From: Ulva prolifera
Lineage: Eukaryota > Chlorophyta > Ulvophyceae > Ulvales > Ulvaceae
Direction of reading: 5' to 3'
Length of the DNA stretch: 64,000 nt
Assembly: GCA_023078555.1 (NCBI GenBank)
Contig: CM041199.1
Location: 6,515,315 to 6,579,314 of the forward strand
Numbering within the stretch: position 1 is the first letter of the stretch; the number at the start of each line of letters is the position of its first letter. Of the stretch, positions 24,470-50,880 are shown piece by piece. The position numbers and the translations under genes were made by a program. The notes below the pieces were generated by a model. That model searched no databases. It saw only the letters and a list, made by a program, of their open reading frames with translations, and was not told the origin of the DNA.

Positions 24470-25187
24470 GCCAGTGTTGTAATGGCCAAATCTGTCTGCT
24501 CAGAAGCACACATATTCCAGATATGCAGGCACCAATTATGGGTACATGTGTATGTATCTCAGGCTAGTGCCTTGCAAAACTTGAGCCAGGCGAAAGTATA
24601 CTAAAGAATACCTCAGAATGCCAGCATGTACCACGTCACAGCTGTGCACATGAGCTGCATGCATACAGCTACATGTGCATAATTCCACATGCCCAAAAGT
24701 GCCACTAGCATTCCTCAACATGTATAATCTCACATACCAATCCCATGTATCATGCCACCTTTTGCCACAGCCTTTTGGCAGTGCGAAGTGCCAGCTCAGT
24801 GCATGACACGTCATGCATGCGGCGCATGCATACTGCTGGTCTGCGCTTGCGCACGCCAAGGGTGCAGCGTCAAAGACCATGCCAGCCAACCTACGTCTGC
24901 GTATCCATGCAGCACGATGTTGCTGCATTGGATTGACGGAGGATGATACATGCCAAATCCCAATGCCCGCAGCAGATCGCCAGATCTCGCGGGATGCTGC
25001 ACCCTGATCCGTACAGAGATCAACGAGCAGCGCGATTCCACAGTTCCACAGAACTATCAGTAGCGAGGACAGCACAAAGCAGGGATGGGCCTGGGCACAT
25101 ATATTCCAAGTGTTTTGCTGTGATCGACACAATTACCTTTGGTCGATTGGGGCGCTTCTGTTCCAGTCATTCCATCTGTGCTGCATT

Positions 25188-25857
25188 CTCCAGTTTGCAA
25201 ACACATTCGGGCTGTTCACAGCCAGGTTTGAGGTGTCTGATCAGACTGACCATGGGGCAGTCCGCCATGCCAGCCCCAAAATGCAACAGGTCATTGGCTT
25301 GTGTGGCACCTGGAGGAGTGCCACGTGTAAATATTGCTGTTGATGGCTGCTATTTGTCATGCTGTGCGGCTCCAAAACGCCCCAAAAATCATCATTTTCA
25401 AGCCTGGGCTGTGCACCTGTCCAGGCACGCAAAAGCAACACCCCGAATTGCATTCCCACTGAGGTTGTGTTGTCAGAATTGGCTTCCTCAAGGCCAAATG
25501 TCCAGCATGCTGCATCTCCCAAATCCGCCCGACCAGAGTTTCATACTTACCTCAAGAGATGTCCTGTTGCAAGCAGAGCCTCTCACTTTGCACACCAGCT
25601 CCAAATGGCATTCTGCGTGTGGTATCACCCCCGAACATCTGTGTGCTTGACCGTTTCTTGTGCGGAAACTTGCTATGCACTCAATATCACTCAACAAAGG
25701 CATTCACCAGCAGCTTTTTTGCGTGCTTCGCGAATCTGCGATCCAGGTGTCAACAACGCTGTTGTGTAGTGCATGGCGTGGCAGTGTGGTGAGTGGTGCC
25801 GCGTGACGCATGCTGCATGCGAGATTCCAACACACCGAGTTTGGCTGAAAACTGGTG
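25188..25857. repeat. left 670-bp terminal direct repeat of the nested element
   Basis: It is repeated at 30227-30896 with nearly perfect identity; for example GCGTGACGC here reads GCGTGATGC there, and ACTGGTG reads ACCGGTG. Near-identity implies either very recent insertion or a copy mechanism that templates both repeats from one sequence, as LTRs are. Confidence 0.95.
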
Positions 25858-25923
25858 AAGGTGAATTGGACTGTATATCACATATTAATGCCAGCGCTTT
25901 GCACCCGGTCATAACACGTAGTA

Positions 25924-27719
25924 ATGTTAAATATGCATCTTCTGAAGGCTTTTTTGTACGTTTTGAGCCTTGCGGCTGTATTCTGCGATCTGACTCTGGA
26001 CCGCCCGGTGGCACTTCTGGTGATGGACGGTAAGAGTTCATTAAAACGCGCTCCAAGCCGCGAGGCAACAATTAGAATGAATCATATTCCTCTGGCCCTG
26101 ATAGTTGCATCGTCGCAGGTTCTGATGATGCGCCCGGCGCCGAGCACTGCCAATTCCGGACGTGCATGGAGGAGCGATTGCTGCTGATGTTCATGTACGT
26201 TCGTAGCCTAAAACTGAATCAAATTGTCCCTGCAATCGTCGATGGACATTTGCCTACGGATCGGGGGCCTTTGGAGGAGTACGGGCATCTGGAGACCCTG
26301 CACCAAGAGCTTCTGGATCAGCTGAAGGTGAAGAAAAGCGCCTTCAGAGCCAACAAGGAGAAGCATGAGAAAGAGAACTTCTTGTACTATGATTCCAGGA
26401 AACGTGCACGCCCAGCAGACATGGCTCATGATGGGCCTCAAGAAAATGAGCCATTGAATCTCGGCGAGCGGTCTAGAGACAACCTAGCACGAAATGCAAA
26501 TGAGTATGATTCTGCTGTAACCTGAGCCAGCTTCAATGTCAGCCAGTGGTATCGTATGCATGTGTGTCTGGCACCTTGGCTGAGGCCCTTGCTGGTGAAC
26601 AGGGCAATGAAGCGGGTGATCAAAACAGGAACACTGGTGGACCAGCCACCCGCCCTGCCTCAAAGGAAGGCTGCGAAATACTACGACCTGCTCGTTGATG
26701 TCGTGAACGCACTGCTGGAGGGCAGGATCACCAATGCACTACAGAATTCTTTAATGTGCCAATTAATGTGCCATACCACAGCGTGGAACAGGCTGCACGC
26801 TATAACCCCATCATTGACACAGCTTGTGAAGTGTTGGGCCTGACGGAATACAATTCCTTGTGGAGACTGTTGCAGCAGACATTCCCCAAGCTCAGAAAGT
26901 CCAACATCCAGATGATTGGACAAAGAGACACTGGCCAAGCTATCAAGGCAGCACAGGAGCTGCTTGGAAGGGCTCCAATGGACTTCAGCTATGTGTCGAA
27001 AGGCAAGGCTGGCAGCCGCCATTTGAAGCACCACCCCTTGCTGCAGAGGGTTGCTGCGGGATACTTGTTTTTCTACAAATATGCTCAGCTGTTCTGCAAC
27101 GTGTTCTTGGATGCAGCAAAAACCGAGCCTGCAAGGTGGGCAGCTGAGCTCAAAGGCATCACTCATAGAGGCCTACAGCTCCATGAATGGATCGTGCATG
27201 GACTACTGAAGGTTGGCAGCTAGAAACCCAGCCTGCCCCACATTGACAGATGCTTCATCTTGATTGCTCTTTCGTTTGCAGAAACACAAACACAACTTGC
27301 CAGTGCTGTAATTCTACGCCTTCGGGAGCGCACAGCTGGGCTCAAAGGTGTACACTGTGGCAACAGGCAGCAATGCCAGGTGCCCTAAACCAGACCAAGG
27401 AGATGCTGGCAAGGTCAAGCCACAAGCAGGCCTGCTGACATGGGGCAACCACCTGCCACAAGCAACAAAGCTGTGGGTGATGAAGGAACAGTATGGCAAC
27501 GAGCCCGCAGCAATACAGAAGCTGCAAGCTCAAGGCGACAAAGGTGCAGCATTTGTCCAGCAGCACTTCCCCAGGGACACCATCCTCTTCAACGCCAACA
27601 AGTACACACCCGAGGCCTTCTTGGTGTGTATCTACGCAATTACACGAGGCTATCAACAAGCTCTCGCAGCTTGGCGTACTCATGAGACAATTCTTGACCG
27701 TGCTTGCCAGTCTGCCTGA
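25924..27719 (+). CDS. hypothetical multi-exon gene of the nested element
   Basis: Coding-looking segments lie at 25924-26029 (begins MLNMHLLKAFLYVLS, a hydrophobic N-terminus that could be a signal or anchor), then after a GTAAGA...GCAG intron at about 26120-26510 (a charged, Lys/Glu-rich helical stretch with KKSAFRANKEKHEKEN), about 26600-26740, 26756-27210 (helical, no known motif) and 27300-27719. Exon links beyond 26510 are uncertain. At least one frame change or stop near 27310 prevents a clean join, so the gene may be broken or have introns I misplace. I recognise no transposase, polymerase or binding domain. The 3' end overlaps the convergent nuclease ORF by about 80 bases. Confidence 0.4.
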
Positions 27720-28200
27720 TGTCAAACCTATGGCAGTAAACATTGCAATGCGCCAGCGTTGAATCCTTGCGAATGTCCCTGTTAGCAGATACTCTGCCTC
27801 GGTGGCTGTCACCGTCGACTTCTACAGCAAATACATTGCCATTGTTTAGCACGACAAGCAAATCTACTGTGTGCGGCGGCCCACGCCTATACCTGCCGCC
27901 TGCAGCTCTTTTTTTGAGGCCTACAGGACACTCGGGTAGCATGCAAGCTGCACCATCTATTGTGTACATCATATCAGCAATGCTACGACAGACGTCATCA
28001 TGCAGTGTATGTTTACAGGCATATCCATGATGGGGGCAGTTTGCAACCTTGCCACTCCTCCACCTGCCCAGAAAACATACCCTGCCAGCCACACATCCAT
28101 GCACAGCATCAGCGGGGATAATATCAACGCGCCTAGGTACAACTGTCCCTGATAGCAGGGTCTTCAGTCTCTTTGCCTGATCTTGCACCTTTGATTCCAT
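27640..28200 (-). CDS. PD-(D/E)XK-like nuclease ORF (DUF559/Vsr/RAP-like fold), 186 aa
   Basis: An intact single-exon ORF starts with ATG at 28200. Its C-terminal half shows the restriction-endonuclease-like signature: TVDLLVVLNNG, then FAVEVDGDSH (E-x-D-G-x-x-H), then ANRDIRKDSTL, then a strand ending in HRFDIRQ. This order (D in a strand, ExDG...H, RD..KD..L) is that of DUF559-like and Vsr-like nucleases and of RAP domains. The N-terminal half has several Cys and His residues (CPHHGYACKH, CMLPECPVG) that might bind zinc. It lies on the strand opposite to its neighbours, between the plus-strand ORFs and a 131-bp repeat array. A nuclease that makes the cut for insertion is an attractive role but is only inferred. 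A captured organelle RAP-type or repair gene is the alternative. Confidence 0.6.
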   Translation of the reverse strand: MESKVQDQAKRLKTLLSGTVVPRRVDIIPADAVHGCVAGRVCFLGRWRSGKVANCPHHGYACKHTLHDDVCRSIADMMYTIDGAACMLPECPVGLKKRAAGGRYRRGPPHTVDLLVVLNNGNVFAVEVDGDSHRGRVSANRDIRKDSTLAHCNVYCHRFDIRQTGKHGQELSHEYAKLRELVDSLV

Positions 28201-28279
28201 CCTGCATGCACTACACCTGATTGAAAATGACAGCTAGCACAATCTGTGGCAACTGCACATGATCTGATGGCCAGGACAA

Positions 28280-28850
28280 GAACAGCTGCTGCACAGAGTG
28301 TGTGTGCATCCATGGCAATGCACTCAAGCAATTGTGCATTGTGTGAGTGTGTGGAGCAGAGTCTACAGCTGCAGCACCACCCAGCAACTTGGGCAGGAGC
28401 ACAGCAACAAGAACAGCTGCTGAACAGAGTGTGTGTTCATCCATGGCAATGCACTCAAGCAATTGTGCATTGTGTGAGTGTGTGGAGCAGAGTCTATAGC
28501 TGCAGCACCACCCAGCAACTTGGGCAGGAGCACAGCAACAAGAACAGCTGCTGAACAGAGTGTGTGTTCATCCATGGCAATGCACTCAAGCAATTGTGCA
28601 TTGTGTGAGTGTGTGGAGCAGAGTCTACAGCTGCAGCACCACCCAGCAACTTGGGCAGGAGCACAGCAACAGGAACAGCTGCTGAACAGAGTGTGTGTTC
28701 ATCCATGGCAATGCACTCAAGCAATTGTGCATTGTGTGAGTGTGTGGAGCAGAGTCTATAGCTGCAGCACCACCCAGCAACTTGGGCAGGAGCACAGCAA
28801 CAAGAACAGCTGCTGAACAAAGTGTGTGTGCATCCATGGCTATGTACTCA
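28280..28850. repeat. 131-bp tandem repeat array, about 4.3 copies
   Basis: GAACAGCTGCTG-type starts recur at 28280, 28411, 28542, 28673 and 28804, an exact spacing of 131 bases. Units are nearly identical (variants TCTACAGC and TCTATAGC alternate between copies). The array separates the minus-strand nuclease ORF from the plus-strand gene at 29011 and could carry promoter function for both, which is inference. ORFs through the array are repeat artefacts. Confidence 0.95.
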
Positions 28851-29010
28851 AGTATAATAATTGAGCATGGTGCATTGTGCTTGTCTGTGGAGCTGTGGCT
28901 TTGTGTGTGCCCAAGCTGAAGGCCTCACCTGCTGTCACTTGTTCCCTGATTCTTGTGCACGATAGCCTCTGAAATGCTTGCAAAATCCATACCTGCAAAC
29001 GAACTAGTGT

Positions 29011-30153
29011 GTGAGAGCCTGTGCTGTTGCAGCAGATCGGGTGTGCAATGTGCAGAATTCCCACAAGAGTTCTGAACTTCTGCCCAAGGCAGTATGTTCT
29101 TCAGAGTTTCGAATGCTGATGGAGGCAGGTTTCATGCGCGACTTCATGCACAGGGCTCTGGGTGGTGAGTTGTGTGAGGCAACCAAAGCGAGATGGGACG
29201 ACCTGTGCAAGGACTACTACCAGAGGATGGGGTCGCCCCCCGGACTTACATGGCACGATGTGCACTTGCCCTTTGGCATAAGTTTCGACAATGCACCAAT
29301 ACACAAGGCCTTCAGGAAAGCGGTGCTGGTACCACGCGTGCCATTGCTCGCAGAGTTCCGGTCCATCTTCGAGCACGCAATCGCCGGACTCGATTTCAAC
29401 GTCAGTCAGGCATTCCCCGAAGCAGCGGACGTCGTGACCGAGTACTACGTGGGCAAGGCTGCACGTGCGAGGAAGGCGAAGACAAAGAGGGATGCGACGT
29501 CATGGGCGCAAATGATCACTCAGATGAAGAACAGCTATACAGGAGACATCTTCTACGTGATGGTGCAGTTTCAACAGTTCCCATTCACGGGCGAGCATGC
29601 CAAAGTGAAGGAAAGACTCGCTACGGAAGTATTTGACATTCTGGCAGCCCGATTTGAGGCAGCTAGAACAGCGTACCGTATGCAGAACGGCTTCGACTGG
29701 GTATCTCAGTTCCGCCGAGATCAGGCCTTCCGCGATCCGCGGTGGCTGTGCTTCCTGCCAGAGCAGTTCATGCCGCTGGGCAACGCTACTCCCGACCTGC
29801 ACCAGTGCGCTGAACTCCTCGTCGGAATTTACAAGGGCGCCATGAGAACGTGGACCATGCTGCATGATCCAGACGCTCGCGAAGTGCTGCTTGCGAAAAA
29901 TTACGACGCAGAGTTGCATGCCACTTGTCAAGCGCGCAACGAGCCGCTCGGACAGACAGGGCTCAGCATAGAGCGAACGACGATCTCAAACTCTATTGAG
30001 CGTACCTGGACTACTGCTCAAATTGTCGCCGCGCCGTACGGGACTTGGTTCTCGCCAGACAAGCGACCAGATCCGTCTACAGATGAAGTCTTGCAATATG
30101 ACTATGAGGTTATGGGTACAGGAGGTCGCTTTCCTGGTAAGAGATGGGCGTGA
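29011..30153 (+). CDS. uncharacterised 380-aa protein of the nested element
   Basis: A long intact ORF with coding-like composition starts near 29011 (ATG at 29116 gives a shorter form, MEAGFMRDFMHRAL). It is rich in charged and aromatic residues. At about residues 89-97 it reads SFDNAPIHK, which resembles the DNA-x-x-H word around the second acidic residue of DDE transposases, but no other DDE blocks are visible and I do not claim that family. Near the end FPG is followed by GTAAGAG, a good donor; an acceptor CTCCAG lies exactly at the start of the right direct repeat (30227-30232), so the transcript may splice into the repeat. The protein is large enough to be the element's main mobility or packaging factor, but its function is unknown. 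Confidence 0.6.
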   Translation: MRACAVAADRVCNVQNSHKSSELLPKAVCSSEFRMLMEAGFMRDFMHRALGGELCEATKARWDDLCKDYYQRMGSPPGLTWHDVHLPFGISFDNAPIHKAFRKAVLVPRVPLLAEFRSIFEHAIAGLDFNVSQAFPEAADVVTEYYVGKAARARKAKTKRDATSWAQMITQMKNSYTGDIFYVMVQFQQFPFTGEHAKVKERLATEVFDILAARFEAARTAYRMQNGFDWVSQFRRDQAFRDPRWLCFLPEQFMPLGNATPDLHQCAELLVGIYKGAMRTWTMLHDPDAREVLLAKNYDAELHATCQARNEPLGQTGLSIERTTISNSIERTWTTAQIVAAPYGTWFSPDKRPDPSTDEVLQYDYEVMGTGGRFPGKRWA

Positions 30154-30226
30154 TCGCTGTGATGTTCGCAAAATTGTCGCCGGTGGTGCTGTGGATCCTT
30201 AAGCCACCAGCCATCCGGACTGGTTT

Positions 30227-30896
30227 CTCCAGTTTGCAAACACATTCGGGCTGTTCACAGCCAGGTTTGAGGTGTCTGATCAGACTGACCATGGGGCAGT
30301 CCGCCATGCCAGCCCCAAAATGCAACAGGTCATTGGCTTGTGTGGCACCTGGAGGAGTGCCACGTGTAAATATTGCTGTTGATGGCTGCTATTTGTCATG
30401 CTGTGCGGCTCCAAAACGCCCCAAAAATCATCATTTTCAAGCCTGGGCTGTGCACCTGTCCAGGCACGCAAAAGCAACACCCCGAATTGCATTCCCACTG
30501 AGGTTGTGTTGTCAGAATTGGCTTCCTCAAGGCCAAATGTCCAGCATGCTGCATCTCCCAAATCCGCCCGACCAGAGTTTCATACTTACCTCAAGAGATG
30601 TCCTGTTGCAAGCAGAGCCTCTCACTTTGCACACCAGCTCCAAATGGCATTCTGCGTGTGGTATCACCCCCGAACATCTGTGTGCTTGACCGTTTCTTGT
30701 GCGGAAACTTGCTATGCACTCAATATCACTCAACAAAGGCATTCACCAGCAGCTTTTTTGCGTGCTTCGCGAATCTGCGATCCAGGTGTCAACAACGCTG
30801 TTGTGTAGTGCATGGCGTGGCAGTGTGGTGAGTGGTGCCGCGTGATGCATGCTGCATGCGAGATTCCAACACACCGAGTTTGGCTGAAAACCGGTG
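30227..30896. repeat. right 670-bp terminal direct repeat of the nested element
   Basis: This is the partner of 25188-25857. It is followed by ATT (30897-30899) and then by the remaining 80 bases of the gypsy 5' LTR. Small ORFs inside duplicate those of the left copy and are not supported as genes. Confidence 0.95.
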
Positions 30897-31002
30897 ATTG
30901 TTACCCCTGTCTTTCTCTCCTGTCGTTTCTGTACGCTCGCTAGGGTGCCCAGCTCCCTGCGCTACCCGATCAGTCAACAGGTATCGGTGAGACTTCTCTG
31001 CC

Positions 31003-33366
31003 ATGGCCGATCCTAGCGAGTATAGTCAGTTTTATGCGTCTGTCGTTCAGCCTCCAGATGACGATGGCGTACCTCCCGACCTCATCCAACTGTCAGGCTT
31101 CGACGCTTTGCAAGCAGCGGAGCGCGAGGCAATCCGCCTGGCCATATCCCTCCTGCTGACTCTTACGAAGGCTTTCTTCGAAGCGACTCGGCGCTCGTCG
31201 GTCGAGGTGCTGAAGTCGTACGGCCAGGCTTCCCGCACCCTGCTCCAGATGCTCGTCCAAAGCACCACCGACCAGACGCCCCCCCCGTTCGAAGCACTTC
31301 GACGAAGGTCCCACCTGAATGGCGATCAAGTGCGCGAGCAGCTGCGAGCAGCCACTGCGACAACCTGCGCCTCCAACTGGGGTCCACCTGTGGGCTGCGT
31401 GCGCGATCTTCTCTCCGTCAGCGCGATGGCCTTCTACACCTGGACTGGCGGCGCCCTCGCTGCCACCATTCTGGACTTCGTATATTCCTTCTCTACAGAT
31501 GCTGCTGCCTGGGCAACCGTATGGCTACAGTGTCCTGTGGACCACTCCCACCTGGACTTCCCTGCCCTCGCCCTGCGCGTCACGTCGCATCGCGCACGAA
31601 GCACCAGCTCCAGCCCCGCGGCCATGGTGTCGCAGCTCGCCACCCTCGCCGTCAGCGCCATTGAGCCGATTGTACGGTCCATGTACACAGCAGCGTCTAT
31701 CCTACCTGGGACTACAGCGAACTACTTCGAGGAGCAGCTGTTCCGCGCGACATCCGCGCAGGTGGCAGCAGCGCCCGCGCTGCAGTACGCCGGCATCGTG
31801 CGATCGAACTTGGTACTGTCATCCCTGCCTCACGTGTCGAGCCTGCCATGGTACACCCCGAACTTCACAGACGACTCGAGTGCAACCTGGTTTAGATCTG
31901 CTGATTATTTCTTCGCATCCATACATTTTCCTTTGTCTGATGCGGTTCGTGGCGATGCATCCGCTGAGCGAAAGTGGCATCACTACGTGTGCGAAGTTTT
32001 GAACAACCGCGTCTTATGCATGAAACTATCTGAGGCCCAGGTGATCAAACATTTGTCCAAGGGTTTCACTCGTGATGCCATGCACTACCAGGTTGCCACA
32101 GAAAAAGCCATGTCTCCTGAGTGCACCGTTCGTGAATGGCTGGATGCCATACGTGACTTTTTCTTTACCAACGGGCAATTCAGAATGCATATCGAGGGAG
32201 CCTGGAGCAAATACCGTGCTGGAAAAGCCTCCAGCTTCAATGACTTGGTGCATCATGTCCGCATATATTACCAATTGATCTTTCTTGATTATGTGGACTT
32301 GCCTGGCAAAATGTCCCTGCAAGATTTTGCATGGAACTTGTTTGACAAATTGCAGCACCTCATGTCCCCCGAGTGCACCTCAGAGTTGTCAGCCACAGTC
32401 AAAATGTTCATGCCACTACCAGACCTGCTGCAAAAATTGACCGCACATCTGGAGAACAGCCACACATGGCCGACCGAGCGCGCAAATTCACATGCCATAG
32501 CATTTGTCACATGGTGTGTGGACAAGCTGAACACAGCCAAGGAGACAGCCAACACAGCCAAGCGCTTTGCCACATTCTCTGCCAACCATTACCAGGGTGT
32601 AGATTTTGCATCCACCAGCACCCATACCACCCCCACCCGTGAGATACCAGCCCACACATCAGCACCAAAACGAGGCCAGCGGCAGATTGCCATGGCATAT
32701 ACCAATACCCAAAGACCAGGCCAGAGTCGCAGCCAATTTTCCAACAACCATTCAACATATGTGCAGCCATCTACGCCATCTTCCAGCGTCAACCGGGAGC
32801 GCTTACCAGGCCTCCGGGACGCCCGTAAGCTTCCATTCCAACAGAAGCAGGCCTGGCTCGATAATGCCATGGGCAGTCCCACCGTACCACAGTGGATCAA
32901 AGATGTATATGCGTTTGAAGTTGCCAACCACAACGCGCCATTCACCATCCACGGTCTTGCGGCAGCCTGCCGTAAAGAACTCCCTTACTACCTTCCATTC
33001 ACACCCGTGGCCGTCGGGATATTCCTCTTGGAAGCAACTTTCCACCACCGCAAGCGAGTTTGCGGCATCTGCCCCTCCTCCATGCCTGACAGCGACAGGT
33101 ACCACCGCATCGCGGACTGCCCTACCGCGCGTTCCATTGCGCCGGAGGCACTCGCAACCTGGGCGCAACACCCTGCCAACAAGAACAAGTGCCTGATGGC
33201 AGTGGAGCCCGCCGACGAGCTACCGCCGCCACCACCCCCGCCGCCGCAGCCGCAGAGCGCGGCAAACACTCCAAATTCCGCGGGCCCCCGCAATTGCAAA
33301 CGGTATGATGATACCCCTCAGACTCCGAACAAACGAGCACATGCCCCTGGCAACCATATCCGTTGA
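31003..33366 (+). CDS. gag: gypsy Gag polyprotein, 787 aa
   Basis: The ATG at 31003 lies 23 bases after the 5' LTR. The frame is open for 787 codons to TGA at 33364-33366. The N-terminal third is Ala/Ser/Thr-rich; residues about 300-530 have the helical, Trp- and Phe-containing pattern of retrotransposon capsids (WFRSADYFF, WHHYVCEVL, VREWLDAIRDFF); the C-terminal part is Thr/Pro/Gln-rich. A Cys/His cluster at about residues 687-705 (CGIC...H....C) may be a degenerate zinc knuckle for RNA binding. A poly-Pro run follows and the end is basic. Pol continues in the same frame after the single TGA, so Gag-Pol expression may use stop readthrough. Gag forms the cytoplasmic particle that packages element RNA. 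Confidence 0.88.
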   Translation: MADPSEYSQFYASVVQPPDDDGVPPDLIQLSGFDALQAAEREAIRLAISLLLTLTKAFFEATRRSSVEVLKSYGQASRTLLQMLVQSTTDQTPPPFEALRRRSHLNGDQVREQLRAATATTCASNWGPPVGCVRDLLSVSAMAFYTWTGGALAATILDFVYSFSTDAAAWATVWLQCPVDHSHLDFPALALRVTSHRARSTSSSPAAMVSQLATLAVSAIEPIVRSMYTAASILPGTTANYFEEQLFRATSAQVAAAPALQYAGIVRSNLVLSSLPHVSSLPWYTPNFTDDSSATWFRSADYFFASIHFPLSDAVRGDASAERKWHHYVCEVLNNRVLCMKLSEAQVIKHLSKGFTRDAMHYQVATEKAMSPECTVREWLDAIRDFFFTNGQFRMHIEGAWSKYRAGKASSFNDLVHHVRIYYQLIFLDYVDLPGKMSLQDFAWNLFDKLQHLMSPECTSELSATVKMFMPLPDLLQKLTAHLENSHTWPTERANSHAIAFVTWCVDKLNTAKETANTAKRFATFSANHYQGVDFASTSTHTTPTREIPAHTSAPKRGQRQIAMAYTNTQRPGQSRSQFSNNHSTYVQPSTPSSSVNRERLPGLRDARKLPFQQKQAWLDNAMGSPTVPQWIKDVYAFEVANHNAPFTIHGLAAACRKELPYYLPFTPVAVGIFLLEATFHHRKRVCGICPSSMPDSDRYHRIADCPTARSIAPEALATWAQHPANKNKCLMAVEPADELPPPPPPPPQPQSAANTPNSAGPRNCKRYDDTPQTPNKRAHAPGNHIR

Positions 33367-35724
33367 GAACCTGGCAAGCCGCCTCTTGGCTGCCCATCTT
33401 GGGCGGTGGAGCCTTTTGTACTAGCGGCTGACCACGCCTCAGGCCACGGCATTGTTTTTCCTTCCTCACTCAGCACAGCTGACACGTCATTATTCGATAT
33501 TTCCACGCTATCTTGCCCTATTGTTGTTACCTTGCCATACACTGATGAGGCACACGTAGCATTGAGACATTTACATGCCATCAACCTGAATGGGCACCAT
33601 GTCACAGTAGCCATCCCTGGCCGCTTGTTTGATAGTGATGCGTTCGTGCCGTACACTAGCAGACACAGGTACAGCACAGTAGACAAAGCCAATGCATTGT
33701 TGTCCTATACGGACGGCCGCCCAGTGCCAGGTCACCAGACGTTCCATGTTTTGCGATTGATGTCCAACCAGCAGAGCCTAAATACATCTGCTATTTCGTG
33801 TGCTAGTCAGAAAATTGACGCTGTGGATCTGATCTGCACGGTCCCCATCCACATCAAAGGCAGCCGCTTGAAGGCGCTTGTAGACACAGCCTCCAATCAC
33901 AGCATGATTACAGTAGAATTCCTACAGGCCAATGCCATACCATATCACCAAAGCGCATCCACGTCGCATGGCATCTCTGGGAGTGCAGCACCCTGCCTCG
34001 GTACTGTCACATTATGCACAAGCATAGGCCGCCAGCGTCACGATGTCACGTACACTGTGGTAGCAAGTTTGCCGGCTGCAGAGTGGCATGCACCCAATCA
34101 CGCGCTATTGGGTCTTGATGTGATTGCCGTCACGCACATGAAACTCGAGTTTGATGATCCGGACATTCGCATCATCGTGCCTGGCCGTAAGGCTGGCCCA
34201 CGAAAGCATTCTCGTGATTGGCAGCATGTCGTGCACATACCCAAACGCACACCTGCTTCACAGGGAACATCAGATGAGTATGCATGCACCAGCCGTAAGC
34301 TGAAATCTGTGCTAAATGTGGTAAGTCGCCTCTGTACGTGGTGCATGTCAAAGCAGCACATGCACGCGTCGAGCCTTCCAGCGATATGCATGTATGTGCG
34401 GCGTCGAAAAAGAAAGGTTTTCTGTCCCAACAGCAAGTACCAGCACCAGTCCAGCAAGATGTAGCCACCATCCCACAGTGTGTTCAAGAGATAGTACACA
34501 AACATTCCAAGTCCGGAGGCACGCTCGGGCCTGCACCCCCAAATACCACAGCCTTAGGCTTTGAGATGAATATTGAGAATTTGCCTGGCACCAGACCACG
34601 TGCTGCCCGCCAGTACAGATTGACTCCACTGGAACACTCTGAACTGGAAAAGCAGGTACAACACTTGCTTGACATGGGCTGGATTCAGCCGTCCATCTCC
34701 CCTTGGGCAAGCAGCGTCCTTTTTGCTCCCAAATTTGTTAACCCGGAGGTAAACTGAGACTGTGTGTCGACTACCGCTACCTGAATGAGAACACAGTAAA
34801 GAATAAATACCCATTACCACGTATAGATGCCTTGCTTGATAAATTGCAAGGCCAGAGGTACTTTTCTGCATTGGATCTTGCTTCTGGATATCACCAGATC
34901 AGACTAGCCCCGACATCCCAGCCAAAAACTGCATTCCGCACCCCTGATGGCCTGTACGAATGGACGGTGATGCCATTCGGTCTCACCAATGCACCGAGTG
35001 TCTTCCAACAAGCAATGCACGTGGTTTTGCGTGGACTGATTGGCAAGATTTGCCTTGCATACCTCGATGACATTATCATCATTTCCAGAACTGCTGAGGA
35101 TCATGCCATCAATCTTGATCGTGTGTTGACTAGGCTGCATGAACACAACTTTTTCTGCAATGCTGTCAAATGCCAATTTGCCATGCAAGAAGTCAAATAC
35201 TTGGGACATATTGTTACAGCAGATACCGTGAAGCCAGACCCACACAAGGTTTCAGTGTTGCAACAATGGCCTGAGGCTGATTTAAAATCGTCAACCAATA
35301 CCATCCGATCATTCTTGGGTCTTGCTGGCTATTTTCGCAGATTTATTCCGAAATTTCCCACCCTTGCTGCCCCACTGCTCGAGCGCATGAAAGCCAAAGG
35401 CAAGAGCGCATGGACTGAACAATGCACTCGAGCATTCAATGACATCAAACATGCTCTGATCAATGCCACAGGCCTGCGCCATCCCAATCTCAACCAGCCC
35501 TTCCATGTGTACACAGATGCCAGTGATTATGCCTACGGAGCTGTCTTGATGCAAGACCATGAAGCAGCTCTGCACCCCATTGCATGGGTAGGCCGAAAAA
35601 TGAATTCCTCTGAGGTCCACCATGCCACTTTTGAAAAAGAGCTGGGCGCCATTGTTTTTGCTGCACGCCAATGGCGTTGCTATCTGGAAAATGGCCACCC
35701 CGTGTACGTCCACTCTGACCATAA
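33367..35724 (+). pseudogene. pol: gypsy pol, first part: protease, reverse transcriptase, RNase H (5' part)
   Basis: The frame continues directly after the Gag stop. An aspartic protease region shows ALVDTASNHSMI at about 33880 and ALLGLDVI at about 34110; the active-site word is DTAS rather than the usual DTG/DSG. The reading frame shifts near 34320-34325, then the RT begins (RLTPLEHSELE, then SPWASSVLFAPK). A second shift, apparently one lost base, occurs near 34745-34757, after which RLCVDYRYLN, SALDLASGYHQIRL and the catalytic AYLDDIIII (about 35060) are intact. RNase H starts at about 35508 (VYTDASDYAYG) and is cut at SDHN by the CACTA-2 element. Two frameshifts and the insertion make it non-functional. 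The missing C-terminal part resumes at 46594. Confidence 0.9.
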
Positions 35725-37329
35725 CACAGGGAGTACCATGAGTATGCTCACCCATGGGTGCGCACAATGGGTGCGCCAGTTGGCTCGCGTCGCGGAAACT
35801 CTTGAAGTAGCTTTTTTTTGATCGTCGTTGACGCTGAATGTTAGCTAGAAGTGTTTTAAGTATCATGGGATCGGGCTGACTTCAATTGGTTAAGATTTCG
35901 GCATTCTGTGGGCCATGATCTGACACATGCCATCGAGGCTCTTTGCCGTAGTCCGGCGTGCAGCGCTAGCGAGGGATGCAACAAATAGCACATGGACATG
36001 TATAATTGATATTTATCATTACGCGTCCGTTGATATGTGACGGGCGCGCTTCTCGGTCGGCGGTGGCCCTGCCCTCACGCCAATGTGATGTGGCCTGACA
36101 TGAATGCCCGGACCGGAGTTTCGTTCAAACAGACGCTATGCGACCTGACACAGCTTCATGGTCGAAACTGGTCGTCGTTAGGGGCTTGGCTGCTTGTGTG
36201 CGTGCCAGCTTTGCGTCCCAGGCCAATTCTGCATCTGACCTGTGGCAGCCAGACACAGATGCTGAGCTTACGTACACACTGCAAATCGGCGCATGAATGC
36301 TTCCGATTGTCGCATATTGACACGAGTGAACGTGGATGAACAGTTTCCATGGTTGATCGTTGCTTGGGAGGGTGTGATACCTGACGGATGCCCGTCTAGA
36401 CATTGCGGACTTCAGTGGGGCTGTCCCGTCAGCACATATATTGTTGCCATAGCTCGAACCATCACATATACTGCCTAAATCGCGTCAACATATATGTGAT
36501 CTCGAACCATTGTGCTTGTTTAAACTCGCAATTGCGAGAGCAGCCCTGCGGTTCCTTCGCAAGTGGGCGTGCGCAGGTACATAGAATAGCCTCGCGGCGC
36601 TCTGCAGCAACACAGTTATGTTCTCTTAAGTATTACCCATGTTTTGCGATGCTCATGAGCTCTTTCTGTGATCGTTTCGGCTGTAGTCCTTATTGCTCAC
36701 CCTTCATGGCGCACCTGCTCCTATGTGCTCTCCTCCGAGATCCTGGCGCACCTTGGCGCGCGCACCCGAGGGTAAGCCATCAATGCACGGGTGCTCCAGC
36801 AAAGGTGCGCGAACGCACCGCAGCCCGAAAGGCTGCCAGAAATGAATGAAATGTATCGTATTGACTGTTAGATTTGATTCTGGTACATTCCTAGTGTCCT
36901 ACGTCCATTATGTGGCGTTCGCTGGGGTGCCTGCCCTCGCGACCATCCTAGCAACCAACCCAGCTGCAGGCTCTTAATGACAAACTTACGCATTCTAAAT
37001 ATCTTCCTTGAGTATGTTGTCCTTTGTGTAGCTCGACGTATCTTGGATGCCGGCGCAGAGGTGATTGGATCCTGCATCATACACGGTATCAGGCTCAGTT
37101 AAGTGCTGCCCAGCTAGCGATGGAAGCTCGCCAATCAGGTAAGCTGTTTCCTATCTGATTCTGAATATGGGTGATGCGAAGCAGTAGACGTGAACAGGTC
37201 ATTGTGTACAAAGAATCGTACTTCACAAGCGGGGTTCAAGGTGATCGTCTCACTCTTCGAGTGCTTTTGGCCCTCGAGATCATCATGTTGTTTGTCAATT
37301 CACTTCTGTGTATGTCAACTACTGCTTCC
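35725..37329. other. CACTA-2 terminal region, no gene seen
   Basis: Apart from the terminus and the GCGCACC-type words near 36708-36822, I see no coding exon or RNA. It lies downstream of both minus-strand genes and presumably holds 3' UTR and subterminal sequence. Confidence 0.5.
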
Positions 37330-38373
37330 TGTGCCTTGCTCGTCTGTCTCCTCTTCCGAGCCTGGCAGCAACACTCACAAACACACATCAGTGCGAAACG
37401 TTGCAGTACAAGGGTCCTGAGATGTCCTAAGCAGACCACAGTGGCTGCGCCGAGACCTAACATGCGGTATGTATGCACTAGTGGCAAATTCTGCACACCT
37501 GCTTGTCGGTGACGTTGGCCAGCGGTGCCTCTGCCACTGGGTCTGCAGCGGATGCATCCGGTAGCTGGTCAAATGAATCTGATGATGCACCTGCAATGGT
37601 CGACGCCTCCTGTGCCTTGCTCGTCTGTCTCCTCTTCCGAGCCTGGCAGCAACACTCACAAACACACATCAGTGCGACACGTTGCAGTATGAGGGTCCTG
37701 AGATGTCCTAAGCAGACCACAGTGGCTGCGCCGAGACCTAATATGCGGTATGTATGCACTAGTAGCAAATTCTGCACACCTGCTTGTTGGTGACGTTGGC
37801 CAGCGGTGCCTCTGCCACTGGGTCTGCAGCGGATGCATCCGGTAGCTGGTCAAATGAATCTGATGATGCACCTGCAATGGTCGACGCCTCCTGTGCCTTG
37901 CTCGTCTGTCTCCTCTTCCGAGCCTGGCAGCAACACTCACAAACACACATCAGTGCGACACGTTGCAGTATGAGGGTCCTGAGATGTCCTAAGCAGACCA
38001 CAGTGGCTGCGCCGAGACCTAATATGCGGTATGTATGCACTAGTAGCAAATTCTGCACACCTGCTTGTTGGTGACGTTGGCCAGCGGTGCCTCTGCCACT
38101 GGGTCTGCAGCGGATGCATCCGGTAGCTGGTCAAATGAATCTGATGATGCACCTGCAATGGTCGACGCCTCCTGTGCCTTGCTCGTCTGTCTCCTCTTCC
38201 GAGCCTGGCAGCAACACTCACAAACACACATCAGTGCGACACGTTGCAGTACGAGGGTCCTCAGATGTCCTAAGCAGACCACAGTGGCTGCGCCGAGACC
38301 TAATATGCGGTATGTATGCACTAGTAGCAAATTCTGCACACCTGCTTGTTGGTGACGTTGGCCAGCGGTGCCG
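37330..38373 (-). repeat. 281-bp tandem duplication (3.7 copies) at the 3' end of the CACTA-2 second gene
   Basis: TGTGCCTTGCTCGTCTG recurs at 37330, 37611, 37892 and 38173, an exact 281-base spacing. Each unit contains, on the minus strand, a coding-looking stretch (basic KRRQTSK, then an acidic and Ser-rich part ending LANVTNKQ) followed by a donor-like CAG|GTGTGC and a short intron-like segment ending TATTAG. The LANVTNKQ end is also the end of the upstream exon 38342-38683. The array may therefore be an exon duplicated in tandem; a multiple-of-3 exon length could not be established. Confidence 0.85.
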
Positions 38374-40649
38374 CTGCAGCTTCGCCATATGTATCTGTGT
38401 CTTCGTCCAGTGCATCGATCGCTGCACTGGGGGGTAGTGGTGCAAGAGCAGCTACTCGACGCCTCTGGCGAGCTGTCCTTGTGTTGTTGGTCGGCTGCAA
38501 CGTCGTGTGGGGATCTTCATCATCTGAAGCAAGCTCCAGGTCTGAATTCGGGTCATCTTGGGGCTGTTCGATCTCTTGAGTGATGACAGCTCCTGGTTGC
38601 AGTGGGACGGTACACTGCAATGCTTCACAGAACTCCATCAGCTCCTCTGTTTCCGCCATTCCTGCTTGCTGGAACTCAGCCCCCTGCACCACATGCATAT
38701 GCATAGATGAATCGGAACCTACTCGTATCACATGCAGTGATACTTGTGAACCCCGTTGTGCATCAACACAGTCTACTAGAAACTCACCACGTAGTCACAA
38801 AGTGCCATCAACATGAACACGCCTGCCAGGTGGACGTAACCACTCGCTGGTGATTCAATGAGCACGGTGTCTTCTGGCGCTTCATCAACCTGCCGTGGCA
38901 CGGGGACTCGCCATACAGTAAACTGGTGTGTGGCCCTGAAAACCCGCATGCCTGCTAATGTATTCCCTCCGCAGGGGGCCATTAGTTCAGCACATGTCAT
39001 CCGGTGGAGATCTGCAGCGTTGAGCAGGGCTTTTGAGGTCTGATTCTCGGGTTTCATTGGATCACTGCTTGCCCATGCGCCTCCGTAAGGTCCTTCAGGC
39101 GTGGGATACCCAGCTGTTCCATAGATCATCGGCCATACTTGGCCCACTGGAGCCTCGGGGTCGTTGTCCGGTGGCGGAATGCTGAGGGTTTGGTATTGTT
39201 GGACTTGCCCTAGCGTGGGGCAGTCCTTCATCTCCTCAGCCCATGTGATCCACAACGCCCGTAGCCCCTGTGCACGAGGTATAGGCACTCACTGTGATAC
39301 ACATTTGAGACACTAACAAACGGTTAACAAAACGCAATGAGCATTGCTGGCCACACCTTTTTCTGTTTCTCTGACGCAGCCATCCCCTTCATGCCTGTAT
39401 ACAGCTTACCGCGGAACCCCTGTGAGGTAGTGGAGGGCGCAACCTCATGTACATGTTTGTTTATTGTGGTCAGCCCGTCCTTGATAGCTGAAACTTCATC
39501 TGATGTGCAGAGCCATGGCTCGTTGGCGAGGATCGTCTCGAGCTCACCGGTCTGCTTCTTCTCGTGTGCCCAAGACAAGAAAAACAAAAAGTTTTGTGGT
39601 CTCACTTTCTTTGCATTGTCAGAGTCCATGCCCTTGGACATCTTCCGTAGGTTTGCTCTGATTGCTTTGTAGACAGCTGGCTTCCTGTCTTTTATGCAGC
39701 GCTTCTTGACATAGGAAGATGTAATTCTCGTCGCCTGCTTCTTCGCTCTCTTTGCAATGTATCCACTTCTGGCTTGTAATTTACCTGGCTTTGCCTGAAT
39801 TCACGAGGACCTGATTTAAACTTGAATGAGTTATGTACACTCAAGTAATGCACTCCATTGAGCACACTGAAGTTATGCACGCTCAGTCAATCCTGGACAT
39901 CGCACCACAACGCCACTGCATGTTCGCCAGGCCTCAGGAAGAAGTTTTGCAAGCTTGTTTTTGGTGCGTGTGGAAGGCACTGCCCCAAGGTGAAGGGATG
40001 GGGTGTTGACGACATCAGCTACATCCAGATATTCCAAGTGGTGCAAAAACATCTCCGGGGTGTTGTATGGTGTGAAAATTTCCATGGTATGTAACATTGA
40101 TTTCTCTGCCTGCATTTGACCATTGCGAATCACACACCATTTGAATACAGCTTGCGGTGATATCACAGTTAACAACGCGACTTCAGCAGACGCCTCGAGC
40201 AACTTCCTTCCCGGCGTACATACTTCAGATCGGGTCTTTGACACTTTACTTGATCTTGTGCCGGATCGCTGCGTGTTTGTTGGGCCAGCGGTCCCGCTTG
40301 TAGGTGGCTCCAGTTGAATCGCAGCTGTCAGTTTCTCGCGGGGACCTATCCAGTGGAGATCACGCTCGTAAGGAACTCTATACAGGACCTTGAATATTTG
40401 TTTGATAGTATCGTCGAGGAGTTTATCAGATCCATATACAAAATGTAGCTCTCTTGGACAGGCGTGTGCAACCTTGCGGCTGACGTCGTCATATACATCA
40501 TTCAAATAGTCAGCGATACTTTCGCTCTCGCTCTTTGACAGGGCTATCGAGATCTCTTGGTTGTCGACGACAATTACCAAGCATTCGAGGTCACGCACGA
40601 GCACAGGCTCGAGCACAGGCTCGTGCTCAATTGCTACGTCGTCAGTCAT
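38342..40649 (-). CDS. CACTA-2 second gene, at least 4 exons, no recognised domain
   Basis: The proposed start is ATG at 40649 (MTDDVAIEHEPVLEP). Exon 1 runs to about 39905. Exons 39357-39794, 38788-39267 and 38342-38683 join in phase 0, each a multiple of 3 (438, 480 and 342 bases). Exon 2 is strongly basic (KRAKKQATRITSSYVKK), plausible for DNA binding. Exon 4 is acidic with a basic RQRRR patch. The last exons appear to lie in the 281-bp repeat array, so the C-terminus is unresolved. The frame is also open upstream of 40649 to about 40817, but without ATG. By position this is the second CACTA protein, expected to recognise the GGGTGCGC subterminal words. It shows no similarity I can see to the second gene of CACTA-1. 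Confidence 0.6.
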
Positions 40650-45930: not shown

Positions 45931-46593
45931 CGGGCGACGGACATGTGAAATGTGCAGCTGTCAACGTCTTCTCCCACATAATGCGGATGTAGTCGACTCG
46001 CGCAAATAGCGACTCAGCGGCGTCGATTAAGCCCTCGCTGCAGTGCCGCATGCATCACACATGGCATGCCGTCCCTGTCTGCAGCTTGTCACAAATACAA
46101 GCCTTCACTTCCAAAAGAGATTCGCGATTTCGCTGATAATTTGCGATATCAGGTGGACGCGGGACATATATCAATCGTCTGTCGGAGTTGAGGCAAATAG
46201 TGAATAGGAATGCTGTGCAATGTGCGGGCGAGGCTGGGTGCACGTCGGTCTGCGCGTGATGAAGTCCAAGCATAGCATCCTTGATCCCCGTTGACCCACT
46301 CGCTTCATGATAGACCATCCGCCGCATATGACACATTCCCTTTCGCTCACCCTAAAGTATGGTGCACCCGTGAGGTGAGCCATATCCAATGACCGCAGCG
46401 GAGTTTCGCCGGTAATCCACGAAAACTACCCATCCAATAAAACACAAACACCAATACGCGTATGCAGAGTGTAATTAAGCCAATCCCGCATCAAAATACG
46501 CAGTTCCCTGCAAGATGTGTACTGACGCACCCACAATACGCGCACCCAATGTTTTGGCGCACCCAGGTGAGCCCTACTCACCATCTCCCTGTG

Positions 46594-49344
46594 AATCCAC
46601 GGAGGTACTTGCAGACCCAGCAACGCTTGAATAACAAGCAAGCGCGTTGGGTAGAGACGCTGTCCCGCATCAACTGGCACATCATGTACGTGCCTGGTGA
46701 TAAGAACGTGGTGGCGGACGCAGTGTCCCGTGCCACACACCTGCCTTCCATGACAGTACAACTGCATGATGACCATCCCATTTCGTGTGCCTCTCGTGCG
46801 GGCAATGCCATTCCAGTGCAAGTTTCTTATGCGTTTCTGGCCGTAAGTCTGACCACGGCTATAGCACGCAGATGCCACTCTTCCCCATCCCCGGATCCAA
46901 GCGGATACGAGCTTCCAATCGCCAGCACTGGATCAACGGCCATATCATCTGGCCAGTCGCCGATGAATCAGGCCATCCCATACCACCAGACGTTGCCAAC
47001 AATCTCTCCCCAGCCCTGCGACTACTCCCGGCTACGAGAGAAGTTCGGTTCACCCCCGCCGGGCCTGTCCCCGCCCATGCCAGACCTGCGTTCCCAGTCG
47101 CAATTTCCACCTCTGTCCCAGCCACAGGACCCACGGCGGCCCACGCAGCCGCCGCCATCAGTGATTTCCATCAGCTCGGGGTCCAGCCCCCGCATGGGCG
47201 AGCAGCTGGAGTCTCAGCGGTCCCCGGTGTTGATGCCAACGGGATCTCCGCCAGCGCTGCCACCGCCCCCATCCCCACTTCCCCGCCGGCCCATGCCAAC
47301 GCCGACCCGCCGCCGTTCTCCGCGACCGCTCCTGGTTGCCTCCGCACCCCATCTCCAATGTCAGACATTGACTTCGCGCCTACAGCGGAGGAGGCCGAAT
47401 TCCTCGGCCTCACCCCTCCACCAACAGCCCGCGCGTGAGGACGACGTAGCGACCGCGCAGCCGGATGCTTCCGCGGTGGACTGGGTCGACCAGGAGGACC
47501 TGGTGTGTGACGGCCGCGCAGTCGACGCACAGCGTGTGGGTACGCACTCACAAGCAGAGCTGCTTCTGAAACAATCCAACAAATACTTGACTCTAGATCT
47601 GCACGCGGACGACTTCTGGCAGCGATTGCGTAGTGGCTATGCACATGATTCTGATTTTGCCGAGCCACCTGCATCATACCATTACGACCCTAAGCACCAG
47701 ATTTATCTGCACAAGAACAAGATTGTTGTCCCTGATCATGATCACTTGCGCCGGCAAATTCTGTTGTGGCACCACGTACACCCCTGGCATGCACACATGG
47801 GTGTCTCTCGCACAGCATCATTGATCACAGACTCATTTTACTGGCCAGATATACACAAAGATGTCAAGAAATTTGTGTCACAATGCCATAGCTGTCAGAC
47901 CATGAAGTCCCCGTCGGAGCGGGAGGCAGTCATGTCCCCACTACCTGTACCTTCTGCATGCTGGCGTGTCGTGAGTGTAGACATGATCACGCAACTGCCT
48001 AACTCCACGTCTGGTCACAATTGCATTGTTGTATTTGTTGATCAATTCAGCAAGATGGTAAGATTGATCCCCACAGTGTCTACTCTGAATGGTCCCGGAT
48101 TCGCTGCATTGTTTTTCCAGCACATATACCCCCATTATGGCCTGCCACTTGGCATTTGTAGTGACCGCGGTACGCAGTGGAACAATAAATTTTTCACATC
48201 CCTTTGTGATCACCTAGGCATTGCATTGCAGCTGACATTCTCCTACCATCCTAGAGCCAATGGGCAAGTTGAGCGTTACAATCGCGTTGTGGAAGAAGCT
48301 GTTCGGCATTTCATCGGTCCTGCACATGATGATTGGGATGCATTCCTGCCACATATCGAGTTCAGTATGAATAGCTCCAAGTCGGCAGCCACGGGCTGCA
48401 CGCCGTTCTCTTTGAACCGTATCACTCCGCCGCTATCTCCCACAGCCCTTGCGCTCAAATTGCCACAGCATCAGCAACCAGCTCCAGCTGTGATGCACCG
48501 CATGTATTACTTCCTAGCAAAGCAAGCTCTGGTAGAGGCCAAGCAGTCAATGTGGTCGGATTTCAACAGGAAATCTGCTTGGCCAACCTTTTCTGTGGGT
48601 GATTTGGTCCTGCTATCTTTACGTAAGGTTGCTCTGCATCATCCATCTCTCCGAAAGAAGTTTACTCCGCGTTGGTTGGGTCCCTGTAAAATTCTGGAAG
48701 TAGTGGGCCGGGCCGCGGCCCGTATATCATTGCCGACCACGCTGCAGCGCCTAGGTCTACATGATGTCTTTCACTTCTCTGTGCTGAAACCTTACAATGA
48801 GTCCTTCGATGCTGCATGCGCCACCAGCCCTGAAGCTGCCAAGTCATCGGCCACTGTGGACACGACCACTTATGAAGTTGAATGTGTAGTCAATTACATG
48901 CAGTCGCGGCATCGCGATGACGACATCTCCATCGCGTGCCCTCACTACCTGGTGCGCTGGGTTGGCTACGATGCATCTCATGACTCTTGGTTACCAGTTG
49001 ATGAGTTGTCCGGATGCCTGGAGAAAGTTGCCGATTATCTGTTCCACAATGCCTCCAGTACTCAGAGAGCGCACATGATTCATGAGTTTCCGCGTGAAGC
49101 GCGGCTACATCTGTCCCATATAGCAGCCAAGGCTGAATCCACCAGGCGTCCCGTCGCTGGGGGGAAGGTGCCCGCGGGTGGCTGCAACATCGACGATCCC
49201 AAACGCAAACCGCGTAGACGTAGTTCTCGGTTGAGCGAATCCCATAAGGCAGCACTTTCCAGGGTCACCTACTGCAGTTATTGTGGTAGGATGCGGACTG
49301 AGTCCGCAAAGCGCATGTGCGCTAATGCTGCCCCCCCGCTGTGA
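46594..49344 (+). pseudogene. pol: gypsy pol, second part: RNase H end, integrase, chromodomain
   Basis: The frame resumes immediately after CACTA-2 with the RNase H tail (LQTQQRLNNKQARW, then YVPGDKNVVADAVSR). A long Pro/Ser-rich linker follows (about 46860-47560). The integrase zinc region is H-x4-H ... CHSC at about 47780-47900. The catalytic core shows VDMITQLP, CSDRGTQWNN and the distal E in NGQVERYN (D,D-35-E type; about 47975-48275), then WLGPCKILEV. A chromodomain near 48870-49040 contains YLVRWVGYDASHDSWLP and may steer integration to modified histones. The C-terminus is basic. This segment is itself open, but it is separated from its start by CACTA-2, so the protein cannot be made as a unit. 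Confidence 0.92.
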
Positions 49345-50074: not shown

Positions 50075-50087
50075 GTGTGGGGGGAGG
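50075..50087 (+). promoter_or_regulatory. polypurine tract of the gypsy element
   Basis: A G-rich purine run, GGGGGGAGG within TGTGGGGGGAGG, abuts the 3' LTR start (TGTTGTAATGG at 50088). This is the expected primer site for plus-strand DNA synthesis. Confidence 0.8.
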
Positions 50088-50880
50088 TGTTGTAATGGCC
50101 AAATCTGTCTGCTCAGAAGCACACATATTCCAGATATGCAGGCACCAATTATGGGTACATGTGTATGTATCTCAGGCTAGTGCCTTGCAAAACTTGAGCC
50201 AGGCGAAAGTATACTAAAGAATACCTCAGAATGCCAGCATGTACCACGTCACAGCTGTGCACATGAGCTGCATGCATACAGCTACATGTGCATAATTCCA
50301 CATGCCCAAAAGTGCCACTAGCATTCCTCAACATGTATACTCTCACATACCAATCCCATGTATCATGCCACCTTTTGCCACAGCCTTTTGGCAGTGCGAA
50401 GTGCCAGCTCAGTGCATGACACGTCATGCATGCGGCGCATGCATACTGCTGGTCTGCGCTTGCGCACGCCAAGGGTGCAGCGTCAAAGACCATGCCAGCC
50501 AACCTACGTCTGCGTATCCATGCAGCACGATGTTGCTGCATTGGATTGACGGAGGATGATACATGCCAAATCCCAATGCCCGCAGCAGATCGCCAGATCT
50601 CGCGGGATGCTGCACCCTGATCCGTACAGAGATCAACGAGCAGCGCGATTCCACAGTTCCACAGAGCTATCAGTAGCGAGGACAGCACAAAGCAGGGATG
50701 GGCCTGGGCACATATATTCCAAGTGTTTTGCTGTGATCGACACAATTACCTTTGGTCGATTGGGGCGCTTCTGTTCCAGTCATTCCATCTGTGCTGCATT
50801 GTTACCCCTGTCTTTCTCTCCTGTCGTTTCTGTACGCTCGCTAGGGTGCCCAGCTCCCTGCGCTACCCGATCAGTCAACA
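50088..50880 (+). repeat. 3' LTR of the gypsy element (intact, 793 bp)
   Basis: TG...CA ends, 793 bases, followed by the TSD copy GCCAG. It is the reference that exposes the insertion in the 5' LTR: here CTGTGCTGCATT runs straight into GTTACCCCTG at 50800/50801. Confidence 0.96.

Follow-up and report, generated by a model that had tools for sequence, protein, structure and literature searches.

A layout in which two long terminal direct repeats (LTDRs) enclose an internal region (INT) is known from KolobokP, a DNA transposon of animals (Kojima and Bao, 2022, PMC9587614), and we describe here an element of similar layout in the green alga Ulva prolifera, at positions 25188-30896 of a 64,000-nucleotide stretch of contig CM041199.1 (assembly GCA_023078555.1, positions 6,515,315 to 6,579,314, forward strand), hereafter the window. 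According to the parts of the KolobokP paper available to us, its LTDRs are ~450 or ~660 bp long and carry short terminal inverted repeats (TIRs) of their own, the transposase is encoded on the direct strand and a His-Me nuclease downstream of it on the complementary strand, the termini read RR...YY, and Kolobok transposases have a C/DxxH motif between the second D and the last E (PMC9587614). The same parts describe solo LTDRs, target duplications of 3-4 or 4-5 bp without a strong target preference, and (LTDR-INT)n-LTDR multimers; the authors considered a circle like that of IS26 without deciding on a pathway, described the LTDRs of KolobokP as a feature that no other DNA transposon has, and reported a PD-D/ExK nuclease in KolobokE (PMC9587614). 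For the IS6/IS26 elements, the available parts of a second paper describe replicative transposition whose fusion products carry two IS copies in direct orientation and a newly made target duplication, recombination between copies that leaves a solo copy, and the insertion of circles carrying one IS (PMC7986276). Our search covered the open-access literature, with Repbase and most subscription journals outside its scope, and PMC9587614 was the only paper in it recognised for this architecture. We consider it probable that the Ulva element is a pseudo-compound (composite-like) DNA transposon.

The 5.7-kb element is inserted in the 5' long terminal repeat (LTR) of a Ty3/gypsy retrotransposon. The left flank (24474-25187) is 99.7% identical to the host's 3' LTR (50087-50800), and host sequence restarts at 30897. 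As the intact 3' LTR supplies the empty site, which reads GCTGCATTGTTACC, the limits of the insert can be placed at 25188 and 30896 and the ATT on either side recognised as duplicated by the insertion, in agreement with the boundaries proposed in a first-pass annotation made from the window alone. That annotation had also described near-identical 670-bp direct repeats without TG...CA ends, and indeed the two LTDRs differ by 2 substitutions and no gaps over 670 bp, open with CTCCAGTTT and close with AAAC(T/C)GGTG. The host's own two LTRs differ at 2 of 714 positions; because of the few differences in both pairs, host and insert both look young. Genes had also been noted on both strands and are found there, with exons on the plus strand (26023-30153) and a nuclease open reading frame (ORF) on the minus strand (27643-28200). 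The features are as follows, with families numbered as explained below:

24474..30976 (24474-25187 and 30897 to about 30976), plus strand: host Ty3/gypsy 5' LTR, split by the element
25185..25187, no strand: left-hand ATT of the target duplication, which is 3 bp in the window copy and 4 bp in others
25188..25857, plus strand: 5' LTDR, 670 bp, CTCCAGTTT...AAAACTGGTG
26023..26029, plus strand: putative first mini-exon, ATGGACG, aligned with family 2
26119..26503, plus strand: putative exon 1, 45% amino acid identity to family 2, dN/dS 0.31
26603..27130, plus strand: putative exon 2, in which NVFLD..K contains the candidate for the first catalytic Asp
27282..27623, plus strand: putative exon 3, with an in-frame stop in the window copy
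27643..28200, minus strand: PD-(D/E)XK (MTES_1575/DUF2726-like) nuclease gene, in the large intron
28276..28852, no strand: minisatellite, 131-bp unit x 4.4, in the nuclease-bearing intron
29056..30153, plus strand: putative exon 4, 365 codons and stop, with DNAPIH and LPEQFMPLGNATPDLHQCAELLV motifs
30227..30896, plus strand: 3' LTDR, 670 bp, 2 differences from the 5' copy
30897..30899, no strand: ATT, right copy of the target duplication

Relatives were sought in the 88.9-Mb genome, which is that of a photosynthetic organism by its 38 exon-level matches to the chlorophyll a/b-binding family; of 14 control genomes, only a cyanobacterium responded to this search. The match lists score ~40 of 114-131 candidates, and all copy numbers are lower bounds. 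The 670-bp repeat gave 42 matches at 40 of 125 candidate places scored, which include family 1, with 87-100% identity to the window repeat at no fewer than 16 places (the window's two among them), and family 2, with about 76% identity. Relatives of the internal region form a second full element at C3:6451400-6458600, which belongs to family 2, and one on C5, whose 3' repeat is cut after 170 bp so that its target duplication is unreadable. Family 2 includes four LTDRs without a single difference over 670 bp; two of them flank the C3 element, one forms the 5' end of the C5 element and one is a solo, so that three loci are represented. Protein searches led to a third family, which has a tandem array on C1 in addition to single elements there and on C2; the direct repeats measure 670, 670 and 639 bp in families 1, 2 and 3, respectively. 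A fourth LTDR family, 78-79% identical to family 3, has at least 11 matches, and in the two whose ends were read the LTDR is solo. Families 1-3 have a common plan of LTDR, putative five-exon gene, opposite-strand PD-(D/E)XK nuclease in an intron, and LTDR, and their internal regions all begin AAGG(T/A)G. Such shared gene content is what the first-pass annotation had named as support for a real element, and the collection of copies it had proposed includes full copies and solo LTDRs and gives a duplication length of 4 bp.

Several further loci were noted during these searches. A weak exon-4 relative is found 2 kb from the family-4 LTDR match at C3:3850255, and the region C3:3847161-3850834, which contains weak exon-4 relatives of 26-55% identity, may be a fourth, more distant full element. 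The family-3 element at C2:5492200-5499300 is embedded in a tandem array of ~168-bp units, possibly a satellite. Five family-1 LTDR copies on C6 and C9 (L022-L026) have near-identical flanks and an altered right end, and were probably carried within a larger repeat.

The ~640-670-bp LTDR is a discrete unit with inverted ends that is found alone with 4-bp duplications. In families 1-4 it ends CT...TG, and its imperfect inverted ends match at 16/24, 19/25, 17/23 and 14/24 positions, respectively, so that the contrast of direct with inverted terminal repeats, which the first-pass annotation had drawn, dissolves. An exact 4-bp target duplication flanks 21 of the 24 solo LTDRs with both ends readable, against a chance expectation of ~1 in 256 for a 4-bp match. 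Twelve of these solos come from the 30 loci of the repeat search (L015-L044), in which a further 8 LTDRs are joined to internal sequence and 10 loci without a recognisable end were excluded from the count; the other 12 were hand-picked from the genome match lists and comprise six solos from family 2, four from family 3 and two from family 4, and the ends of three of them, missed by the script, were read separately. The 21 duplications differ from one another (TATA, TCGC, GTGA, GAAG, CCAC, ACTG, AGCC, ACGG, ATAC, TCTC, TGGC, CCCC, TCAT, CCGC, TGCT, AAAC, CTTC, TTTA, GTGC, CCTT and ATGG) and no target motif is evident across them. Three single full elements are likewise flanked by 4 bp (TCAC, GATT and ACAT). 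The 3-bp duplication reported at first pass is correct for the window copy, with its flanking ATT, but atypical, as 4 bp is found elsewhere. An array on C1 (11878945-11904899) contains six LTDRs with five exon-4 copies between them, each LTDR being listed as 100% identical to the C2 copy. Its structure is (LTDR-INT)5-LTDR with one common outer duplication, GTGG (4 bp), and it derives most simply from one insertion.

One solo LTDR, L020 (C7:3971212-3971874), and the window insertion occupy exactly the same base position in two different copies of one host LTR family, point in the same direction and both carry the atypical ATT. The LTDRs and host LTRs of the two loci differ by ~5-6%, and there is no match between their upstream flanks. 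Both insertion junctions, at three or fewer mismatches, occur at no further locus; at one place there is a match to just the left junction, again with 3 mismatches. We considered inheritance of the insertion through the host retrotransposon; the window's 3' LTR is without the insert, and no family-1 LTDR lies near the expected 3' host LTR of L020 among the matches listed. The common position could be due to a favoured site, to ectopic conversion or to homing driven by the nuclease.

Alignment of families 1 and 2 revealed a conserved mini-exon start, ATGGACG|GT, followed by four exons with matching phases, which we infer to form one five-exon gene; in family 3, the exon 3-4 junction agrees and the exon order is identical. 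The family-2 element on C3 splices to one stop-free frame of 791 amino acids, or 795 with an alternative exon-2 donor, at splice sites chosen by hand. In the window copy, the frame of exon 2 is shifted by a ~20-bp insertion near 26745. Between families 1 and 2, exons 1-4 have dN/dS values of 0.31, 0.23, 0.18 and 0.21, respectively, the value of exon 2 being based on its second part, whereas an LTDR frame used as control has 1.16. Public assemblies contain 25 relatives of exon 4, with 34-98% identity, of which the 98% match (P0001) may be from the same or a near strain, and exon 2 has two relatives in public data, one of them (P0028) undamaged. The family-2 protein matched none of the Pfam families and no PDB sequence. 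Conserved acidic residues are the D of NVFLDxxK in exon 2 (three families) and, in exon 4, the D of DNAPIH and the D and E of TPDLHQxAE, which are invariant in 11 aligned sequences; a candidate triad made up of the D of NVFLD, the D of DNAPIH and the E of PDLHQxAE is conserved in families 1-3. Because these motifs resemble DNAPIH...SPDLNPIE, which we take to be the pattern of IS630/Tc1 transposases, and because duplications of a fixed 4 bp and inverted ends lead to the same reading, we propose that the protein is a DDE/D transposase, apparently an undescribed one, that might act on the LTDR ends.

In families 1-3, the nuclease gene lies on the opposite strand within intron 3 and adjoins a minisatellite, the unit of which is 131 bp in family 1, 153 bp in family 2 and about 72 bp in family 3. 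The proteins match MTES_1575 with E values of 1.5e-3, 9.6e-6 and 6.6e-7, respectively, all below the family cut-off, and the family-3 protein also matches DUF2726 (35.4 bits, over the cut-off of 24.7) and, weakly, DUF559. We take all three to be PD-(D/E)XK nuclease families, the Pfam listing showing a REase label. The family-1 protein contains the motif VDLLVVL...VFAVEVDGDSH, and dN/dS of the nuclease between families 1 and 2 is 0.36.

How the two LTDRs of an element come to be alike can be approached with two family-3 elements. Each has 0/639 differences between its own LTDRs, whereas the LTDRs of the two elements differ at 10/638 positions and their INTs at 31/2206 and 7/1321 (0.5-1.4%). If the two ends of each element had evolved separately since before the elements split, ~10 differences would be expected within each (Poisson P(0)=4.5e-5 per element), which suggests that the ends were either re-made at transposition or homogenised later; the copies of family 2 are too alike to be informative here. 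We tentatively favour IS26-like cointegrate transposition of a one-LTDR circle as the most likely mechanism. In this model, recombination between the two LTDRs would produce a circle of one LTDR and INT and leave a solo LTDR behind. The transposase would then use the one LTDR of the circle for replicative strand transfer of the cointegrate type and in this way insert it, so that the new site gains INT between two identical direct LTDRs together with a 4-bp duplication, and a circle entering at a resident LTDR would give rise to arrays. The nuclease might stimulate LTDR-LTDR recombination or open the circle. Such a scheme would account for the direct orientation, the identical ends, the constant edges of INT, the solo LTDRs with duplications and the arrays. 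The main competitor, which we regard as rather unlikely, is a composite cut-and-paste transposon in which gene conversion or unequal crossing-over maintains the likeness of the two LTDRs and neither circle nor cointegrate is formed. Here host recombination would suffice, and both the occurrence of solo LTDRs and an array that has a single outer duplication would be explained as well, but conversion would have to be fast enough to leave 0/639 differences in both family-3 elements while these differ from each other at 10 sites.

A number of observations weigh against the reading of a pseudo-compound DDE/D transposon and its circle. The homogeneity test includes two elements only, gene conversion could also give identical LTDRs, and the circles are inferred rather than observed. 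The duplication of the window copy is 3 bp, and two of the 24 solo LTDRs (L019 and C5:93775) have none, L020 being the one with 3 bp. No sequence or fold match links the main protein to any DDE transposase, the triad being read from motifs, and its candidate spacings are long, with ~211-215 residues between the first and second D in the family-2 protein and 175 between the second D and E. Exon 4, the sole part folded, is nearly all-helical in the predicted structure, which had no PDB match at E<=0.001, and the exon-2 donor is ambiguous and would be GC in family 1. The nuclease was not recognised by NCBIfam, PHROGs or PDB sequences and has one relative in public data (P0026, 98% identical), and the favoured transposition model does not require it.

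The element might instead be a diverged, KolobokP-like Kolobok lineage in which the His-Me nuclease was swapped for a PD-(D/E)XK enzyme. As far as the available parts of PMC9587614 go, the likeness is broad and covers the LTDR-INT-LTDR plan, LTDRs near 660 bp with their own inverted ends, the opposite-strand nuclease, the multimers and the solo LTDRs, whose duplications measure 3-4 or 4-5 bp in KolobokP; a PD-D/ExK nuclease is present in KolobokE. However, the ends in families 1-4 are CT...TG and not RR...YY, the nuclease is of the MTES_1575, DUF2726 and DUF559 type rather than His-Me and lies inside an intron instead of downstream of the transposase, and the range published in those parts is animals (PMC9587614). 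In addition, none of the conserved C or D residues of exon 4 is followed by a conserved H three positions on, in alignments of 26 and 11 sequences, so that exon 4 appears to be without a conserved C/DxxH motif, the catalytic residues themselves being provisional. We consider a Kolobok origin improbable. The element works like KolobokP but is not filed as Kolobok, as its ends, nuclease, nuclease position and host group differ.

A non-autonomous LTR retrotransposon with captured host genes, the unusual LTR element suggested as an option at first pass, is very unlikely. Long near-identical direct repeats, solo repeats and a target duplication are found in LTR retrotransposons too, and repeat identity within an element exceeds that between elements. 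On the other hand, four putative introns are kept at matching positions in families 1-2, whereas an RNA intermediate would be expected to lose them, the ends are long, imperfectly inverted and not TG...CA, and the same genes are under purifying selection in diverged families. A Pfam scan of 15 ORFs, some of them partial, from the window element gave the nuclease as the sole family match, and neither there nor in the ORFs scanned from families 1 and 2 did it show a reverse transcriptase (RT) or integrase; RNase H was not found either. The first-pass annotation had likewise reported no RT or integrase for the element and had named copies with RT/integrase and the same repeats as the finding that would speak against its reading; there were none among the copies examined, which are part of all copies. 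With gene content common to three families, its view of a real, non-retroviral, gene-bearing element with direct repeats is supported. The weakest rival, a tyrosine-recombinase element (Crypton- or DIRS-like) with direct repeats, is highly improbable: some such elements do carry direct terminal repeats, but 4-bp duplications, present at 21/24 solos, are atypical of the usual tyrosine-recombinase mechanism and Pfam gave no recombinase match.

The surrounding Ty3/gypsy-like host retrotransposon spans 24474-50880, with RT and RNase H at 34742-35818 and an integrase region at 46441-49341; a gag-like ORF (31003-33366) and an aspartyl protease are also present, and the integrase region includes an SH3 domain and a chromodomain. 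Other pairs of the host LTR start ~9 kb apart in the genome, and some 11-12 kb of the window copy, perhaps near 36-46 kb, may be a second nested insertion. Around 36-46 kb there are minus-strand ORFs without a Pfam match and 281-bp tandem repeats (37324-38377). Elsewhere in the window, long direct repeats at 12176-14190/19867-21858 (94.8% over 2 kb) and 15905-16835/21851-22780 (97% over 0.9 kb) resemble another repeat element or a nested pair, and a tandem repeat at 4809-5905 has a period of ~344 bp with copies 99.5-99.7% identical.

Taken together, the architecture is one already known from KolobokP, and the "new transposon class" of the first-pass annotation was too strong a term for it, given the available parts of PMC9587614; what is new is a variant with an apparently undescribed transposase. 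A bolder proposal, arguable yet on balance doubtful, is an undescribed DDE-type superfamily in which the LTDR is the real transposon, the genes travel on a cointegrating one-LTDR circle and an intron-borne nuclease drives LTDR recombination. If this is true, eukaryotes evolved the LTDR plan on two occasions, once here and once in KolobokP, and combined it with a different nuclease in either case. More generally, the Ulva element would show that the combination of LTDR, transposase and nuclease is a recurrent DNA transposon design and not a quirk of animal Kolobok. It also makes testable how direct-repeat transposons keep identical ends, in a genome that offers young copies, as four family-2 LTDRs are identical and the main gene frame of the C3 element is uninterrupted. 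LTDR elements can pass for LTR retrotransposons in repeat annotation, and others may therefore be hidden.

With respect to the IS6/IS26 pseudo-compound transposons, one difference is that their transposase gene lies inside the IS, whereas the main gene of the Ulva element is located in the internal region. Furthermore, the IS6/IS26 systems are bacterial and have flanking repeats of 8 bp, according to the available parts of PMC7986276. KolobokE, as far as described in the available parts of PMC9587614, resembles our element in being a transposon with a PD-(D/E)XK nuclease and differs in the LTDRs, which that paper holds to be unique to KolobokP among DNA transposons. What the Ulva element has in common with the IS6/IS26 pseudo-compound transposons, as portrayed in the available parts of PMC7986276, are direct flanking copies of a unit with inverted ends and tandem arrays, as well as the cointegrates and one-copy circles that we propose here.

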